Assembly (NCBI GenBank): GCA_025964685.1
Contig: JAOPYG010000009.1
Span: forward strand, 1 to 64,000
Direction: 5' to 3'
Source: Actinoallomurus sp.
GTDB taxonomy: Bacteria; Actinomycetota; Actinomycetes; Streptosporangiales; Streptosporangiaceae
Length of the DNA stretch: 64,000 nucleotides
Part shown: positions 45,070-54,027 of the stretch, piece after piece
Layout: each line of letters opens with the position of its first letter
Position numbering within the stretch: position 1 is the first letter of the stretch
Translations under genes and position numbers: made by a program
Notes under the pieces: generated by a model
The model's database searches: none
Told to the model about the DNA's origin: nothing
Seen by the model: the letters and a program-made list of their open reading frames with translations, nothing else

Positions 45070-46611
45070 TCAGTCCTGAATGAGATCGAACTCTTCCCAT
45101 GGCCCGATGGCCGTGCGGTTCGCGATCAGGGGCGCCGCACCCGCGTTCTCCGCCGTGACGTACTGGTCGTTCGCGTTGGCCCGCAGGCTGACGCTGCCGT
45201 CGCCGTTGTGGATAAGCGCGAACGTCTCCCACTGGCCGATGGCGCCGCGGTTGGCGGCGAGTGGCGCCGCGCCTCCGTTCTCGGCGGTGACGTACTGGTT
45301 GTTGGTGTGGGCCCGCAGGGCGATCGCCCCGCCGCCCTGGTCGATCTCGTCGAACTGCTGCCCGGTGCCGATGGCCGTGCCGGCGGCGATCAGCGGCGTC
45401 GTGCCGTCCGCGGTGACGTACCTGCCGTTGGCGTGGGAGCGCAGGCTGATCACCGCCCCGTTCGGGGGATGCTCGGCGACACCGAGGACGTACGTCAGCT
45501 GGGCGCTGGTGAACTCGGGCTGCAACGTGCTGGACGTCGAGGCCTGGACCTGGAAGCGGCCCGGGGCCGAGACCGTGCCGCCGCATCCGGCGTTGGGCGT
45601 GCCCACGTGCGTGGAGTTGTCCGCGTTGCCGGTCACGGTCCAGTCGCGTACGCCGTTGACGGCGTATCCGTAGCCCATGTGGGCGCCCTGGAGGGTGTTG
45701 CCGGTCACCGAGGCGCCGTAGTTCGTGCCCGTGCCGCAGCCCCAGACCTGCGGGCCCATGGCGATGCCGACCTTGATGAAGGCGCTCTGCGCGTTGATCG
45801 TGTTGCCGGTCACGGTGGTGCCCGTGTAGTTGCCGTTCATGGGCGCGTAGTCGACGAGGTTGATGCCGCCGAGCAGCGTCTGGGTCTTGGCGACGATCGT
45901 GTTGTTCCTGACCGAGGAGCCGGGCGCTCCGAAGATCACGATGCCGCCGTCGGTGGCGTCCTGCACGGTGTTGCCCTCGACCGTGCTGGTGCCGCAGGCC
46001 AGCGAGATGCCGTCGGCCCACGTGCCGCTGGGCGTGGCCGTGCCCGCCGGGCCGATGGTGTTGTTCAGGATCTTCGCGCCCTGGCAGGCGGGGGTGCTGT
46101 TCGTGACGGCGCCCTCGATGAAGTGCAGCGTCGACCAGCTCCGGGTGTCGTGCGCGTAGACGTTCTGCACGGTCTGGCCGGTGCCGGCCGCGCCCATCTC
46201 CATGAGCGCACCGCCGTCGAGCCGGCCGAGGGCGGGACGCCCGCCGTCGATCTGGATGTTCTCCACCGTGATGCCCGGCTGGCCGTTACCGTTGATCGCC
46301 GTGGTGAGCGAACCTCCGACCTTCAGGGTGGCCCGGGTGCCGTCGGTGGGCAGACCCTGGGTCTCGATCACCTGGTTGGGGGCGGTGAAGGTGACCGGAT
46401 TGGTGAGGGTGAAGACCGCTCCGGGACACAGGGCGGCGGTCGCTCCGCTTCCCGTGAGGGCGGCGTTGATGCCGGCTTCGGAACCGGACGGAATGCACGC
46501 CGCGGCGCGCGCGGTGGCCCGGGCACCCGACGCCGTCACCGGCAGTACGAGTGCGGCCGCGGCCACCAGCAGGGATAGGGTTGGGATCGATCTTCCGCGA
46601 GCTGTCATCAC
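45070..46611 (-). CDS. Secreted right-handed parallel beta-helix protein with three fascin-like C-terminal repeats
   Basis: NNTIGPAG, GNTVQDATDGGIVI, NTINAQ beta-helix rungs; VISLRSHANGRYVTADG / IALRAHTNNQYVTAENG / VSLRANANDQYVTAENA. Confidence 0.82.
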   Translation of the reverse strand: MMTARGRSIPTLSLLVAAAALVLPVTASGARATARAAACIPSGSEAGINAALTGSGATAALCPGAVFTLTNPVTFTAPNQVIETQGLPTDGTRATLKVGGSLTTAINGNGQPGITVENIQIDGGRPALGRLDGGALMEMGAAGTGQTVQNVYAHDTRSWSTLHFIEGAVTNSTPACQGAKILNNTIGPAGTATPSGTWADGISLACGTSTVEGNTVQDATDGGIVIFGAPGSSVRNNTIVAKTQTLLGGINLVDYAPMNGNYTGTTVTGNTINAQSAFIKVGIAMGPQVWGCGTGTNYGASVTGNTLQGAHMGYGYAVNGVRDWTVTGNADNSTHVGTPNAGCGGTVSAPGRFQVQASTSSTLQPEFTSAQLTYVLGVAEHPPNGAVISLRSHANGRYVTADGTTPLIAAGTAIGTGQQFDEIDQGGGAIALRAHTNNQYVTAENGGAAPLAANRGAIGQWETFALIHNGDGSVSLRANANDQYVTAENAGAAPLIANRTAIGPWEEFDLIQD

Positions 46612-48675: not shown

Positions 48676-49923
48676 ATGGCAGACTTGGGCTCGCCGAGCC
48701 AAGGAGCTTTCGTGAGCAGGGAAGCGTTCCGGACAGGCAGTACCTACGACAACGTCTACTTTCTGTTCCTCGATGCCTCCGGCTACTCCAGCATCGTGCG
48801 TCTCAACCCGCGGGACCGGGCGGCGCACGCCTTCGACCGGCTACGCGACCGGGTCGTCGCGCGGGTGACCCGGCTGGCCGAAGAGCACGGCTGCGCACGC
48901 GCGGTGCTGTGGAGCTGGCGTGGAGACGGCGGTTTCCTGGTCATCCACGACGACAACGAGAGCATCGCCCGTGACATCGCGCTGAAGGCGGCGCGGTACG
49001 TCCTGACCGTCGACCTTCCGGAGCTACGGGAGGAGCTCAGGCCGGCCGAGCTGCGAGGTGAGCTGCACATCCGGATGGCGGTGCACAAGGGCCCGATCCG
49101 GTACGCCGTCGAGAACGACACGGGCGCGATCCACTCACCCGACATCAACTTCGCCGCGCACCTGGAGGAGGTGACGCCCCGCGACTGCCTGGCCATCTCC
49201 GAGGACGTCCACCGCGTCGCGGGCGACTTCGCGGAGCTGTTCGAGCCCGTCGGCGTCTTCGAGGGCGAGAACATCTATTTGATGCGTCCGTGCGACGGGA
49301 CGAGCGACGGCAGGACAGCCTGGCTGAGAACGGCCGGGCTGGCGCGCCGGGTGCCGGTCCAGGCGTACGCCCAGCGGCCGAGCCAGCACGAGAAGGCTCG
49401 GCTCATCGACGCCGCCACCAGCGAGATCGTCGACCTGGGCACTGCCCTGAACACCTGTGCGGGCTATCTCGTCACGACCGAACGCCCGGCCATCTTCCGC
49501 GACGCCGTGCTGGAGTTCTTCCGGCGGGGCGGCATCTACCGTTGCGTGCTGCTGGACCCGGCCGGCGAGGCCGTCCAGATCTACTCCAGGCTTCGCCGGG
49601 AGGACCTCTCGGTGAAGATCAAGGGATCACTGGCGAAGTTCGCCCGGTTCAAGGAGCGCTTCGGCGCGGCGGCGGACGGGCTGCACGTCTACCAGACCGA
49701 TGAGTTCCCCGGAATGGCCGCGTTGTGCGTCGACCTCCGCTCGCCGCAGGCGCTGGTGTTGTACTCGCCGTACCTGCTCGGCACCCGCACGACCACGCCC
49801 GTCGTCGAGCGAGCCGACATGCCCCACTACCTGGCCGGCTCGGACTCCGGTCCGCTCTTCACCACCCTCACCGAGGTGATCGGAGACGCGATCAACGACG
49901 ACGTGGTGCACCGCGTCCTGTGA
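48676..49923 (+). CDS. Class III nucleotide cyclase-like protein with distinct C-terminal domain
   Basis: YFLFLDASGYSSIVR (metal Asp), WRGDGGFLVIHDD, SPDINFAAHLEEVTPRDCLAISEDVH; C-terminal FRRGGIYRCVLLDPAGEAVQIYSR. Confidence 0.65.
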   Translation: MADLGSPSQGAFVSREAFRTGSTYDNVYFLFLDASGYSSIVRLNPRDRAAHAFDRLRDRVVARVTRLAEEHGCARAVLWSWRGDGGFLVIHDDNESIARDIALKAARYVLTVDLPELREELRPAELRGELHIRMAVHKGPIRYAVENDTGAIHSPDINFAAHLEEVTPRDCLAISEDVHRVAGDFAELFEPVGVFEGENIYLMRPCDGTSDGRTAWLRTAGLARRVPVQAYAQRPSQHEKARLIDAATSEIVDLGTALNTCAGYLVTTERPAIFRDAVLEFFRRGGIYRCVLLDPAGEAVQIYSRLRREDLSVKIKGSLAKFARFKERFGAAADGLHVYQTDEFPGMAALCVDLRSPQALVLYSPYLLGTRTTTPVVERADMPHYLAGSDSGPLFTTLTEVIGDAINDDVVHRVL

Positions 49924-50860
49924 CCACCGCCAGATACGGCAGCAGTCGTTCCAGGACCGTGGCGGCGTTCTCGGCGGCGATCACATGGAAGGAGTCGTCC
50001 TTGACGATGTCCGCCTGGTCGGAGATCCCGCGGATGGACGACCAGCCCACCACGGGATTCTCGTCGCTCACCTGCTCATAGAACGCCTGAGCGATCCCGC
50101 CGGCCTCGGTCTCCAGCGCCAGCGTCTTGTCGTTGACGGTGCCGAGATAGTCGCGGATGGCGGAGTGGTCGTCGGCGACGACCGCGTCCCCCGAGCCGAT
50201 CGGCCCGGTGAGGACGGTGAACGGCCTCTCGCCGCCGGCCGGGTCTCGTCCGGTGAGACGCAGCGGGTACGGGTGGTCGGCCAAGAAGGCGTTGACGCAG
50301 CGCACGACCGCGGGGGGCACCTGGAGGTTCTGCCCCCGCCGCCGCACTCCGTGAGGCGTCTCCTTGCGCAGGTCGTAGTAGACGACCCCTTGGGCGATGA
50401 CGACGTCCCCGAGGGCGAGGTCGGCATGGATCCCGCCCGCGATGCCGACGAGGACGATGACCGCCGGGGCGTAGGTGTCGCGGATCCGCTGGAACGCCAC
50501 CGCGGCCGAACGCTGGCCCGGCTGGACGGCCTGGATCGCGACGACGCCGAGGTCCGCTTCGTCAATGGCGATCCGTGCCTCGTGGCAACGCCGGCCGTCG
50601 GGAAACGTCTCCTCGTGGTAGTCACCGTGGCGCCGGAGCATCGCCGTGACCGCCGCGGTCTCCTCACTGAGCGCGGTGATGACCCCTACGTCCCAGGATC
50701 CGGTCCTCCGCCGGGACGCGTCGTCCACCGAGTCCCGTTCGCCGGGCGGTGGCGTGGCCTGGACGTGCGCGTTCGGCCCGATCGCGGTGTTCCCCTGGAA
50801 ACTGATGCCACCGCTCCCATTGCTGATGACGCCATAGTTCTGTCGCGGCAGTTCATTCAT
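49892..50860 (-). CDS. PNP_UDP/MTAN-family nucleosidase with N-terminal amyloid-like motif
   Basis: VLVGIAGGIHADLALGDVVIAQGVVYYD; ALETEAGGIAQAFYE; IRGISDQAD; N-terminal NYGVISNGSGGISFQGNTAIGPNAHV. Confidence 0.85.
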   Translation of the reverse strand: MNELPRQNYGVISNGSGGISFQGNTAIGPNAHVQATPPPGERDSVDDASRRRTGSWDVGVITALSEETAAVTAMLRRHGDYHEETFPDGRRCHEARIAIDEADLGVVAIQAVQPGQRSAAVAFQRIRDTYAPAVIVLVGIAGGIHADLALGDVVIAQGVVYYDLRKETPHGVRRRGQNLQVPPAVVRCVNAFLADHPYPLRLTGRDPAGGERPFTVLTGPIGSGDAVVADDHSAIRDYLGTVNDKTLALETEAGGIAQAFYEQVSDENPVVGWSSIRGISDQADIVKDDSFHVIAAENAATVLERLLPYLAVVTGRGAPRRR

Positions 50861-50887
50861 CGACGGCCCTTTCGACGGCGGACATCG

Positions 50888-52396
50888 TCACGAGACGGTG
50901 GCGTTAGGGCCGACCGCGGTGGCGCCCTGGGTCACGATCCTGCCGCTGCCCGTCTGCAGAATCCCGTAGTTGAGAATGGACGTCTGCCGGGTGCGGTATT
51001 CACTCGAGTCGACGTTCTTCTGCTCGAGGAAGTCGAGGATTATCTCCAGCACGCGGCGTTCGACGATCTTCGCGTACTTCACCGCGTCGACGGACTGGAA
51101 GAAGTGATGGTAGCCGTCGATCGTGGCCATCTCGCGGATGCTCCGGCGGGCGCCGAAATCCGCGAGCCCACCGCTCGGCCCCGAGACCGCCGACCAGACG
51201 CCCTCGGCGTCGGCGGCGTCGGCGGCCACCTCCAGCCTCTCTTTCCGCTTCTTCGCCTGCCGGAAGAGGAGGAACGGGAACAAGACGACGGCCACGATGG
51301 CCTCACCGATCATCGAGGCGGACGACTCCAGAGCGATGCCGATCACCTTCGCCGGAGTTATCCGGTCCGGTAGCCGGTTGACCGTGTGATACGACGCCCG
51401 GATGGGGGGCAGGACGTAGGTGTGCAGTTCGCTGTACAACGTGCGGCCCCGGACGTCGAAGTTCACGAACAGGGAGTTGACGAGTTCCTGCTCCCACGCG
51501 CCGACACGGATGCAGAGATACTCCCGCGCCGAGTCGTAGGCCTCCTCCCCCTGCACGGCCGGGCGGGACAAGGGATCCGGCCACCACGGGCGCTCCCGCC
51601 CGACCGCGGTGCGGTACCACTTACGGGTCACCTCAAGGCCGCGGATCTGCCGTTCCACCGAAAGGTCGTCGCGGAGAGCGCCACGCAGACGATCCTGGAC
51701 GTAGCGCATCATCTCGTCACCGGTGAACTCCTCGGCCTCATCCTCGGAGTCCGCCGGGGGGGTCAGCAGGATCGGAAACGAGGATGACTTGACGAGAAAG
51801 CCCGCACCGACGAACGGCTTGAATCCGCTGTAGTAGACCACGCCGTTGCTGCTGTCCTGCTCGTTCGCGATACGGCGCACCACGCCGTCATTGAGCTGCC
51901 GATGACGGGGCGCGCCGATGTCGGCGTGGTCAGGGCCTTCGCGGCGGCCACCACCGTAGATCGTCAGAACCTGCAGTGTGAGGAGCTTCTCGAGGAAGAC
52001 CGCCGCCCAGACGACCCACAGCGCGATCAGGAACCCGATGACCGCTCCCTTGATTCCGAAGAAGGCCGACACCACGACGATCAGCGGGCTGAGCATGATC
52101 ACTGTCTGCTTGGCCTTCTGCCGGTCACGGGCGAGCAGAGCGTTCCCGAGGACCGGTACGGCGTCGAAGCCGTACGAGGGCGCGACGAACCGGTGGCCCT
52201 CACCGAGCAGTTCCGCGATGACGGCGTCGGCATAGGACGAGTCCAGGTGCGTCCCGGCGCAGAGGAGACGGGTGACGATCCCCGTGTCCCGCCGTGCGGT
52301 CGACGCGGAGCCGTCGTCGACGGACGGCCCTGCCGCGGTGGTGCCCGCTGACGTGCCTTCACCCATGGCGGTTCGCCCTCTCGGTTCGGCGGTCAC
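50888..52396 (-). CDS. Multi-TM membrane protein with C-terminal amyloid-like motif
   Basis: TM segments LSPLIVVVSAFFGIKGAVIGFLIALWVVWAAVFL and GEAIVAVVLFPFLLF; C-terminal NYGILQTGSGRIVTQGATAVGPNATVS. Confidence 0.75.
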   Translation of the reverse strand: MTAEPRGRTAMGEGTSAGTTAAGPSVDDGSASTARRDTGIVTRLLCAGTHLDSSYADAVIAELLGEGHRFVAPSYGFDAVPVLGNALLARDRQKAKQTVIMLSPLIVVVSAFFGIKGAVIGFLIALWVVWAAVFLEKLLTLQVLTIYGGGRREGPDHADIGAPRHRQLNDGVVRRIANEQDSSNGVVYYSGFKPFVGAGFLVKSSSFPILLTPPADSEDEAEEFTGDEMMRYVQDRLRGALRDDLSVERQIRGLEVTRKWYRTAVGRERPWWPDPLSRPAVQGEEAYDSAREYLCIRVGAWEQELVNSLFVNFDVRGRTLYSELHTYVLPPIRASYHTVNRLPDRITPAKVIGIALESSASMIGEAIVAVVLFPFLLFRQAKKRKERLEVAADAADAEGVWSAVSGPSGGLADFGARRSIREMATIDGYHHFFQSVDAVKYAKIVERRVLEIILDFLEQKNVDSSEYRTRQTSILNYGILQTGSGRIVTQGATAVGPNATVS

Positions 52397-53163
52397 AGCT
52401 TTGACGCCTTCCTGTGCGGAAGGCCGTAGGTGTCGGCGATGGTGTTCCAGGCGGTTGCGAGCTGTTTCTTCTCCTCGCCCGCCTGGTCGCTGAGGCTGAT
52501 GCCGTTCTGGGCGTGCTCGTCAGAGGATTCCGAACCGGCGAAACAGGATCCGCTGACATCACTTCCCCAGGCCGAGAATTCCTGGTCGGCCTGGGCCGAG
52601 TCGCGCAGGGCGGCGGCGAACAGCCGGACCACTTCGTCGCCACCGCTCACCTGGCTCACGTCCTGTCGCTCGGCCTGGTCGGCCAGGTCGGATCGGCTCT
52701 GTGCCGCCTGATCGAGCTGGGTGACGGCATCGTCCAGCGAAGCGTCGCAATTCTGAATATGGACGACCGCCGCCGACACCAGCGTCCGATCCTGCTCCGC
52801 CTGGTCGAACAGGCCGTCCAGCGCCGCCGCCTCGGACGCGCCGGTCTCGGGGGGAACGGACGGGGTCGCCGTCGGACTCGGCGAAGGCGTCGGAGTGGCA
52901 GTGGGCGAGCGGGTGGGCGGCGCGGCGACTTCGCCTTTTCCGGGAAAACCGCCGTACGGGCTGTACATGGAGAAAGGGTTGTGCGGCATGACGATGACGA
53001 TGCCGAGGAGGAGAACGACGAGCGCCGACACCTGCAGAAGACATATCACCAGCGAGCGAACGTCTTCCTGGAGAGAGAAGAACAGCGACAACAAGTAGTG
53101 ACGGGTCGTCGGCTGATCGGGCTCACCTGGACCTCCAGCACGATGGACACCTTCACCGCTCAT
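52393..53163 (-). CDS. Single-TM protein with Pro/Thr-rich linker and Cys-containing domain
   Basis: TM VICLLQVSALVVLLLGIVIVM; linker PPTRSPTATPTPSPSPTATPSVPPE; GTGA overlap with next gene. Confidence 0.75.
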   Translation of the reverse strand: MSGEGVHRAGGPGEPDQPTTRHYLLSLFFSLQEDVRSLVICLLQVSALVVLLLGIVIVMPHNPFSMYSPYGGFPGKGEVAAPPTRSPTATPTPSPSPTATPSVPPETGASEAAALDGLFDQAEQDRTLVSAAVVHIQNCDASLDDAVTQLDQAAQSRSDLADQAERQDVSQVSGGDEVVRLFAAALRDSAQADQEFSAWGSDVSGSCFAGSESSDEHAQNGISLSDQAGEEKKQLATAWNTIADTYGLPHRKASKL

Positions 53164-53311: not shown

Positions 53312-53886
53312 CTATTTCACACATTTGTCCGATTCACTCGGGGGCATGTCCTGTCTCAGGTCGGCGTACAGGACGATCTGTGCGACGAGAAAGACGATGG
53401 CCGCCATCTCGGCGACGGACACGACGACGAGCCCGGCCGAGGTTCGTCCGGTCGCCCGGAAGCCGACGATCGCCGTCAGTGGCGAGCCACAGAAGGTCAG
53501 CAGGTCCACCCGACCTGGAGGAACTTGCGCGGGGAGCGGCGAGCATCGCTGCGGTGGATGGTCTCCCAGCCGAAGATCACCGAGTCGTCGCCGGTCTGTG
53601 CCGCGAGCCGGGGAGCCAGTTCGCCGCGGATATAGCGACCGATCGCGGAGATCTTCTCGTCGTTCGCCAGATAGGTCCAGCCCAAAATCCGGGATACGGG
53701 CGGAAGGAGCAACACATAGGAAGGATCACGGGCGGAGGCAGAAACGGCGATCACCGTAGCCATTGCCGCGAGCGTTACATAGAGCAGATTGTCGCGGAAA
53801 CCAATTCGGGTGCGCTGTTCGTCTTTGATGCGTTCGTATTCCAGGACCATCAGCCGAGCACTGGTCACCTCGTCATCACGCGTCAC
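53312..53886 (-). pseudogene. Frameshifted multi-TM membrane protein
   Basis: TSARLMVLEYERIKDEQRTRIGFRDNLLYVTLAAMATVIAVSASAR...RKFLQVG in one frame, VDLLTFCGSPLTAIVGFRATG...AAIVFLVAQIVLYADL in the next. Confidence 0.6.
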
Positions 53887-54027
53887 CGAACCCGCCCTTC
53901 CTCTTTTCTCGGTATGCGCGAAACCGACTCGCGGGTCGGTGGCACATGTCACGCGGACGACGCGGAAGGATCAGCGTCGGCAAAGCCGCATAGCGTCCGT
54001 GCTACGAATGTCGCTACTGTCGGCGCC

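Follow-up and report, generated by a model that had tools for sequence, protein, structure and literature searches.

Matched, co-varying tails on a membrane protein and adjacent effector-type enzymes in filamentous actinomycetes, a candidate NLR-independent amyloid-type signalling module

Why should two adjacent and otherwise unrelated genes, one encoding a membrane protein and the other a nucleosidase-like enzyme, carry a similar short motif at the C-terminus of one product and the N-terminus of the other? The pair lies in a 64,000-nucleotide stretch of an Actinoallomurus sp. contig (JAOPYG010000009.1, positions 1 to 64,000; hereafter the window), and the original prediction read it as a receptor and effector joined by an amyloid motif, an idea that we consider plausible. 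Whether signalling amyloids operate independently of NLRs was posed as an open question in a 2021 review (PMC7889193).

The motif-bearing gene pair in the window

The features of the locus discussed below are as follows.

49892..50860, minus strand: motif-PNP effector gene, with a 33-residue N-terminal tail that carries the motif, a linker and a PNP_UDP_1 (MTA/SAH-nucleosidase-like) domain
50762..50839, minus strand: effector-side N-terminal motif, NYGVISNGSGGISFQGNTAIGPNAHV, residues 8-33 of the PNP_UDP_1 protein
50888..52396, minus strand: the membrane protein (MP), with a predicted N-terminal TM hairpin, a probably cytosolic alpha+beta domain, a C-terminal helix and the motif tail
50891..50971, minus strand: MP-side motif, NYGILQTGSGRIVTQGATAVGPNATVS, final 27 residues of MP
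51956..52117, minus strand: predicted TM hairpin of MP, residues about 84-137 if the ATG at 52366 is taken as residue 1, based on hydropathy and on the AF2 helices H69-101/H105-138
52393..53163, minus strand: U256, a single-TM protein with an extracytoplasmic helical domain
53497..53952, minus strand: U151, a small membrane protein upstream of MP/PNP, a homolog of which adjoins the PNP-MP pair in locus L035

The U256, MP and PNP genes are tightly packed. MP starts with a GTG at 52396 that overlaps the U256 stop by 4 nt (GTGA; U256 ends at 52393), with an in-frame ATG at 52366, and 27 nt separate the MP stop from the PNP start. A convergent neighbor at 48706-49923 (plus strand) has a cyclase-like N-terminal part and weak similarity to DUF5919 (E = 0.013), and no counterpart of it was found in any other MP locus examined. 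Farther away, the translation of 45070-46611 (minus strand) looks like that of a secreted protein whose N-terminal half resembles a parallel beta-helix and whose C-terminus has trefoil-like repeats (RYVTA..).

Both motif peptides were located exactly where the original prediction had placed them, and they are identical at 16 of 27 positions (NYGVISNGSGGISFQGNTAIGPNAHV versus NYGILQTGSGRIVTQGATAVGPNATVS), which bears out the claim of a homotypic motif shared by otherwise unrelated neighbors. Their local BLOSUM62 score is 84, whereas 5,000 composition-preserving shuffles averaged 22.6 and never exceeded 49, which rules out chance resemblance. The same two copies were the only ones found in the 7.6-Mb draft assembly. 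Synonymous codons were the same at 8 of the 16 identical residues, with 7.8 expected under independent codon choice. Codon sharing is therefore at chance level, which rules out recent DNA duplication as the source of the match and indicates that it has been kept by selection.

The window effector matched Pfam PF01048 (PNP_UDP_1) at E = 2.9e-18 (66.6 bits against a gathering score of 25.1) and the PADLOC 'PN-superfamily' effector model at E = 8.3e-23, and its relatives in the PDB are MTAN. Since it fell below the NCBIfam equivalog cut-offs for MTA/SAH nucleosidases (66.5 versus 169 bits for PRK05584 and 39 versus 73.8 bits for TIGR01704), we treat it as a superfamily member.

MP matched no family in Pfam, NCBIfam or PADLOC, in agreement with the prediction that the presumptive receptor is a membrane protein and not an NLR, and a sequence search of the PDB returned no match. 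The AF2 model is of good overall quality (pLDDT, 83.4; pTM, 0.83), with low confidence at the N-terminus, in one loop and in the C-terminal tail, of which residues 475-492 have pLDDT below 50 and are predicted to be disordered in the monomer. A START/SRPBCC-like fold was considered for MP and rejected, as the PDB fold comparison was not significant (best E = 0.027, rmsd above 20 Å) and was not trusted. Hydrophobic segments lie at residues 84-139 and about 340-372. In short forms of the protein, a TM hairpin is predicted for the N-terminal helices; long forms have more hydrophobic helices there. Most homologs show only a weak version of the hydrophobic helix near residue 350, so that a third TM helix, and hence the membrane topology, is uncertain, and we regard a cytosolic tail as likely rather than proven.

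Homologs of MP were present in 131 of 300 genomes sampled from the family of the host and in 15 of 399 sampled across the phylum, from more distant families, as well as in Streptomyces and Actinoplanes relatives, including Streptomyces plasmid records. Scanning the contigs of named genomes with the window MP sequence alone gave no match, and scanning them with an alignment of one MP sub-group only gave 37 named loci, with members in Streptosporangium, Planomonospora, Planobispora, Nonomuraea, Herbidospora, Acrocarpospora, Sphaerisporangium, Actinomadura and Actinoplanes. Only three records in the plasmid collection matched MP, and none did in the phage collection.

Pairing of tails and partner domains across loci

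The original prediction named co-conservation of the motif in other gene pairs as its test, and many such pairs bear it out. Among the first 20 loci inspected, the C-terminal tail of MP resembled the N-terminus of the adjacent gene product almost everywhere, and the sequences were very divergent between loci. For example, SQVFGGQQNITGPNANVTGTTF occurs in both genes of L103, the two genes of L101 share the tail NHYGHxVxGDMHDxGGNQFGPNPT, those of L112 share FSGSTFGSGDINN, and L054 and L080 have tandem NFGNAPGSNFG motif repeats (NFGNAPGSNFGNAPGS). On a plasmid of Streptomyces sp. NA03103 (NZ_CP054921.1), WP_176156359.1 carries NGGVLIETAGAVGVGDHNIVSNE near its C-terminus, followed by 16 residues, and WP_254882405.1 has HGGIHIGEAGAVAIGDYNQVTNH close to its N-terminus; each is annotated only as a hypothetical protein.

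Since circular selection was to be avoided, partners were re-identified by their domains alone, using DUF5955-like, TIR and PNP profiles from which the motif columns had been cut out, the training partners for these profiles having originally been spotted via the motif. After removal of duplicate records, 91 distinct loci had a domain-identified partner, and the MP tail matched the partner N-terminus at z > 4 in 74 of them and at z > 3 in 79 (median z, 10.5). The partner lies directly downstream of MP in 90 of the 91; in L035, the PNP gene is upstream and the tails still match at z = 6.8. Many of the 17 loci with z ≤ 4 belong to one motif group of weaker similarity, with tails like GVIMTGGTVNGQVAAG.

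The pairing signal goes beyond phylogeny. In a set of 82 pairs, whose choice partly by motif gives a slight advantage to the absolute own scores, the mean own-pair score was 70.7 versus 35.0 for all other combinations (z = 28.6, with none of 20,000 permutations near). The own partner also scored better than the partner of the nearest MP relative in 50 cases versus 17 (p = 3e-6), and in 63 versus 9 when that relative had less than 50% body identity (p = 4e-11), while the partial Mantel correlation, with MP-body identity controlled for, was 0.26, compared with a maximum of 0.15 in 500 permutations. Where a genome has two modules, these are usually insulated from each other: own scores were 78/122 and cross scores 26/28 in genome G201, 73/86 and 29/30 in G013, and 62/58 and 45/18 in G247, with less clear insulation in G248.

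Synonymous codon identity over all pairs was close to chance (776 of 1,220 versus 694 expected). An excess in L101 (20/20), L103 (25/30, with 17.3 expected) and L095 (17/18) suggests that the tail is occasionally copied between the two genes, possibly a route by which a pair could change motif type and yet stay matched.

The 91 partners comprise 77 DUF5955-like helical proteins, 10 PNP_UDP_1 proteins and 4 TIR proteins of the CAP12/Pycsar type. The PNP partners largely retain the nucleosidase-type motifs ..SEE, ALETEA and IRGISD, and the FE glutamate region is retained in all four TIR partners, of which L037, the only one scanned, matched PF10137 at E = 8e-26. Both TIR and PNP belong to the established folds of immune effectors (PMC12881547). 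In most partners, the helical domain belongs distantly to DUF5955 (PF19380; E values of 1e-7 to 0.07), for which no mention was found in the literature searched. Structure prediction gave a confident four-helix bundle after the disordered motif, with no significant match among PDB folds (best E = 1.4). A DUF5955 scan across the phylum recovered mainly canonical Streptomyces genes, and in these (L143-L150) no N-terminal motif could be recognised and MP was not a neighbor; the Pfam family therefore spans a wider helical family. Similar tails precede the unrelated TIR and DUF5955-like domains, and the tail is therefore a module. A second motif copy also seems to lie further inside the partners of L090, L097, L102, L104, L106, L108 and L110 (e.g., GQVVIGGNFTGGAMATG), an arrangement that may be compared with the two HET-s repeats.

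Eleven Streptomyces-type MP paralogs (L125-L127, L130-L132, L134-L137 and L139) end in ...KADxYDA without the motif. None has a neighbor with a matching tail (scores of 22 to 34), and they are a natural negative control. The MP tail of L128, YNFHGSINGPGIYGDRG, has no matched adjacent gene in its locus and resembles the partner motif of L124; its partner is possibly unlinked.

Of 49 loci that span 8 kb or more, 22 have a homolog of U256 beside MP. U256-like genes (L033, L042, L047 and L162-L174) have conserved cysteines in the extracytoplasmic helical domain and lie mostly on the strand opposite to MP, and U256 relatives often have an N-terminal zinc-ribbon-like CxxC pair (CGRCG..CPRCG). It is possible that U256 acts as an outward-facing sensor or co-receptor of the module, and U151 may be an accessory.

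A possible mechanism and its alternatives

As predicted, the tails are rich in G, N and Q, and also in S, and poor in charge (G, 19%; N, 7%; Q, 7%). They have the general features of amyloid signalling motifs, being terminal, about 20 to 40 amino acids long, charge-poor, G/N/Q-rich and, by prediction, disordered in the monomer. Judged by sequence likeness, some resemble peptides experimentally shown to aggregate. Three partner regions matched the one BASS3 peptide compared at z > 4, with the window pair outside the top matches, and the partner motifs KGIQISGGNVQ of L018, L025 and L029 align with KGVQVGDGNVQ of BASS3. Eight regions matched the fungal sigma peptide at z > 4, compared with 0 of 82 control segments at z > 3. 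Both ends of the PNP pair L092 matched the fungal PUASM peptide at z of about 5.4, and the window pair matched it weakly (z of 3.1 and 1.9). No region exceeded z = 4 against the non-aggregating control RDW70414.

We favor, with a probability of roughly two in three, an amyloid-type signalosome that is independent of NLRs, in which MP would nucleate the cross-beta motif and thereby recruit and activate the effector. As we picture it, two or three genes would make up a signalling module in filamentous actinomycetes. MP, anchored in the membrane and in some loci probably helped by U256, would hold out a disordered tail of 20 to 30 residues; upon activation, MP would cluster and its tails would form a cross-beta nucleus (a beta-arch of amyloid type). 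The N-terminal tail of the neighboring effector, which matches that of MP, might then be templated by this nucleus, and effectors would stack at the membrane, where proximity would switch them on; the effector is a PNP enzyme in the window, and in other loci a TIR protein or a four-helix bundle of the DUF5955-like type. Nucleotides or NAD would probably be depleted as a result, and the hyphal compartment would be arrested or die. Tails that diversify and yet stay matched within a pair would keep several modules per genome insulated. Templating of this type fits because the tails are homotypic, short, disordered and charge-poor, the anchored protein is constant, the effectors vary and diversification is matched, and by analogy it resembles the tail templating of HET-S, PP/RHIM, BASS and PUASM. 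Cross-beta polymerisation, the direction of the signal, its trigger and an immune outcome are what we infer beyond the pairing itself.

The main rival is that the tails are docking peptides, which would form a discrete beta-structure, like PKS/NRPS docking tails, and permanently tether the enzyme to MP with no templated polymerisation. The specific pairing of one neighbor's C-terminus with the other's N-terminus and the insulation of paralogs fit this equally well, and so does the stable operon order. However, in almost all loci the two tails are homotypic, and they vary together while staying nearly identical; this argues against docking because in-register stacking expects likeness and hetero-docking needs none. 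Their G/N/Q/S-rich, charge-poor composition, the tandem repeats in L054 and L080 and the seemingly duplicated motifs in the partners of L090, L104 and L110 point the same way, and we consider docking less likely than templating, at about one chance in four.

Somewhat less probable still is that the signal runs in reverse, with the partner (PNP, TIR or DUF5955-like) as sensor or nucleator and MP as a membrane-disturbing executioner, comparable to Bell, HET-S and HELLP proteins with their C-terminal motifs. The original prediction had taken a motif at the C-terminus of the receptor and the N-terminus of the effector to be the arrangement reported for BASS, and here it was mistaken: in NLR-associated BASS, the motif is N-terminal on the NLR and C-terminal on the effector, which may be a Bell, CHAT or TIR protein (PMC7889193; PMC9815663). 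The reading of MP as receptor thus rests on domain logic and not on precedent, and MP could be the executioner, since a C-terminal motif on a membrane-targeting protein and an N-terminal one on the other is the BASS polarity (PMC7889193) and MP has predicted TM helices. Against this, MP is the constant component and its partners vary among known effector enzymes that keep catalytic-type residues; furthermore, the folded domain of MP is large and its TM helices are constitutive, unlike a latent pore domain.

A recent copy of a short DNA stretch, made by duplication or gene conversion and without function, could account for the excess codon sharing in L101, L103 and L095, but is very improbable given codon identity near chance in the window and overall and a pattern that holds across dozens of divergent loci. 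Chance likeness of low-complexity, G/A/T/N-rich ends, both of them G-rich, deserves even less credence in view of the shuffles, the 74 of 91 loci above z = 4 and the co-variation.

Returning to the templating signalosome, we think it probable, with slightly more reserve than for the mechanism itself, that these loci represent a large NLR-independent class in bacteria, in which a conserved, familyless MP with a hyper-diversified tail would template effectors of the PNP, TIR or DUF5955-like kind, and filamentous actinomycetes would harbor many motif types insulated from one another. The evidence for homotypic pairing is good, and the window pair is apparently one member of a large undescribed family. 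No description of MP/effector tail pairing was found in the open-access journal literature searched, so that novelty is provisional. The family offers dozens of directly testable candidate NLR-independent pairs, and its matched and mismatched motifs form a natural panel for amyloid specificity. This would likely be a first role for DUF5955-like domains and for the unnamed MP family, and the pairs suggest a widespread amyloid-type switch that couples a membrane protein to cell-damaging enzymes without an NLR receptor.

Comparison with known systems

Like the modules described here, EACC1 consists of two adjacent actinobacterial genes, a membrane component and a variable effector (PMC7159879). 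It is set apart by its description there as a single-TM alpha+beta component with caspase partners, a description of which motif pairing is not part. The EAD1-10 domains of actinobacterial conflict systems are likewise homotypic adaptors on a core component and an adjacent effector, and are closely related within an operon (PMC7159879). EADs are small folded domains, mostly alpha-helical, whereas the motif here is short, disordered and very divergent; the MP tail is mostly at pLDDT below 50, unlike a folded globular adaptor. DUF5955 (PF19380) is similar in its helical domain, but its canonical Streptomyces members are without the motif or an MP neighbor. The RHIM core that links RHIM, fungal PP and BASS3 motifs is absent from most tails here, including those of the window pair.

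PUASM (PNP_UDP-associated amyloid motif) also places a homotypic motif, with a GxGxG-type pattern, on a PNP_UDP enzyme and its neighbor; it differs in being fungal, in having an NLR partner and in lying at the C-terminus of the PNP protein (PMC9815663). Where PUASM is a C-terminal FxGxGxQxxGxGxF motif on a PNP_UDP protein with an NLR partner, the window motif is N-terminal and its partner is MP.

The closest parallel is with BASS and the bacterial NLR-Bell amyloid signalosomes, reportedly described by Dyrka et al. in 2020. Common to both are a short motif in adjacent genes of filamentous actinomycetes, many motif families and TIR among the effectors (PMC7889193). The MP pairs differ in having a membrane protein in place of an NLR (a NACHT or NB-ARC STAND NTPase with repeats), in partners that are PNP and DUF5955-like with no Bell, and in a motif that in nearly all loci lies at the C-terminus of MP, the constant component, and at the N-terminus of the enzyme, the variable one. 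The absence of an NLR and the opposite polarity, with the motif at the N-terminus of the enzyme, rule out assignment to BASS, though the module probably works in a similar way.
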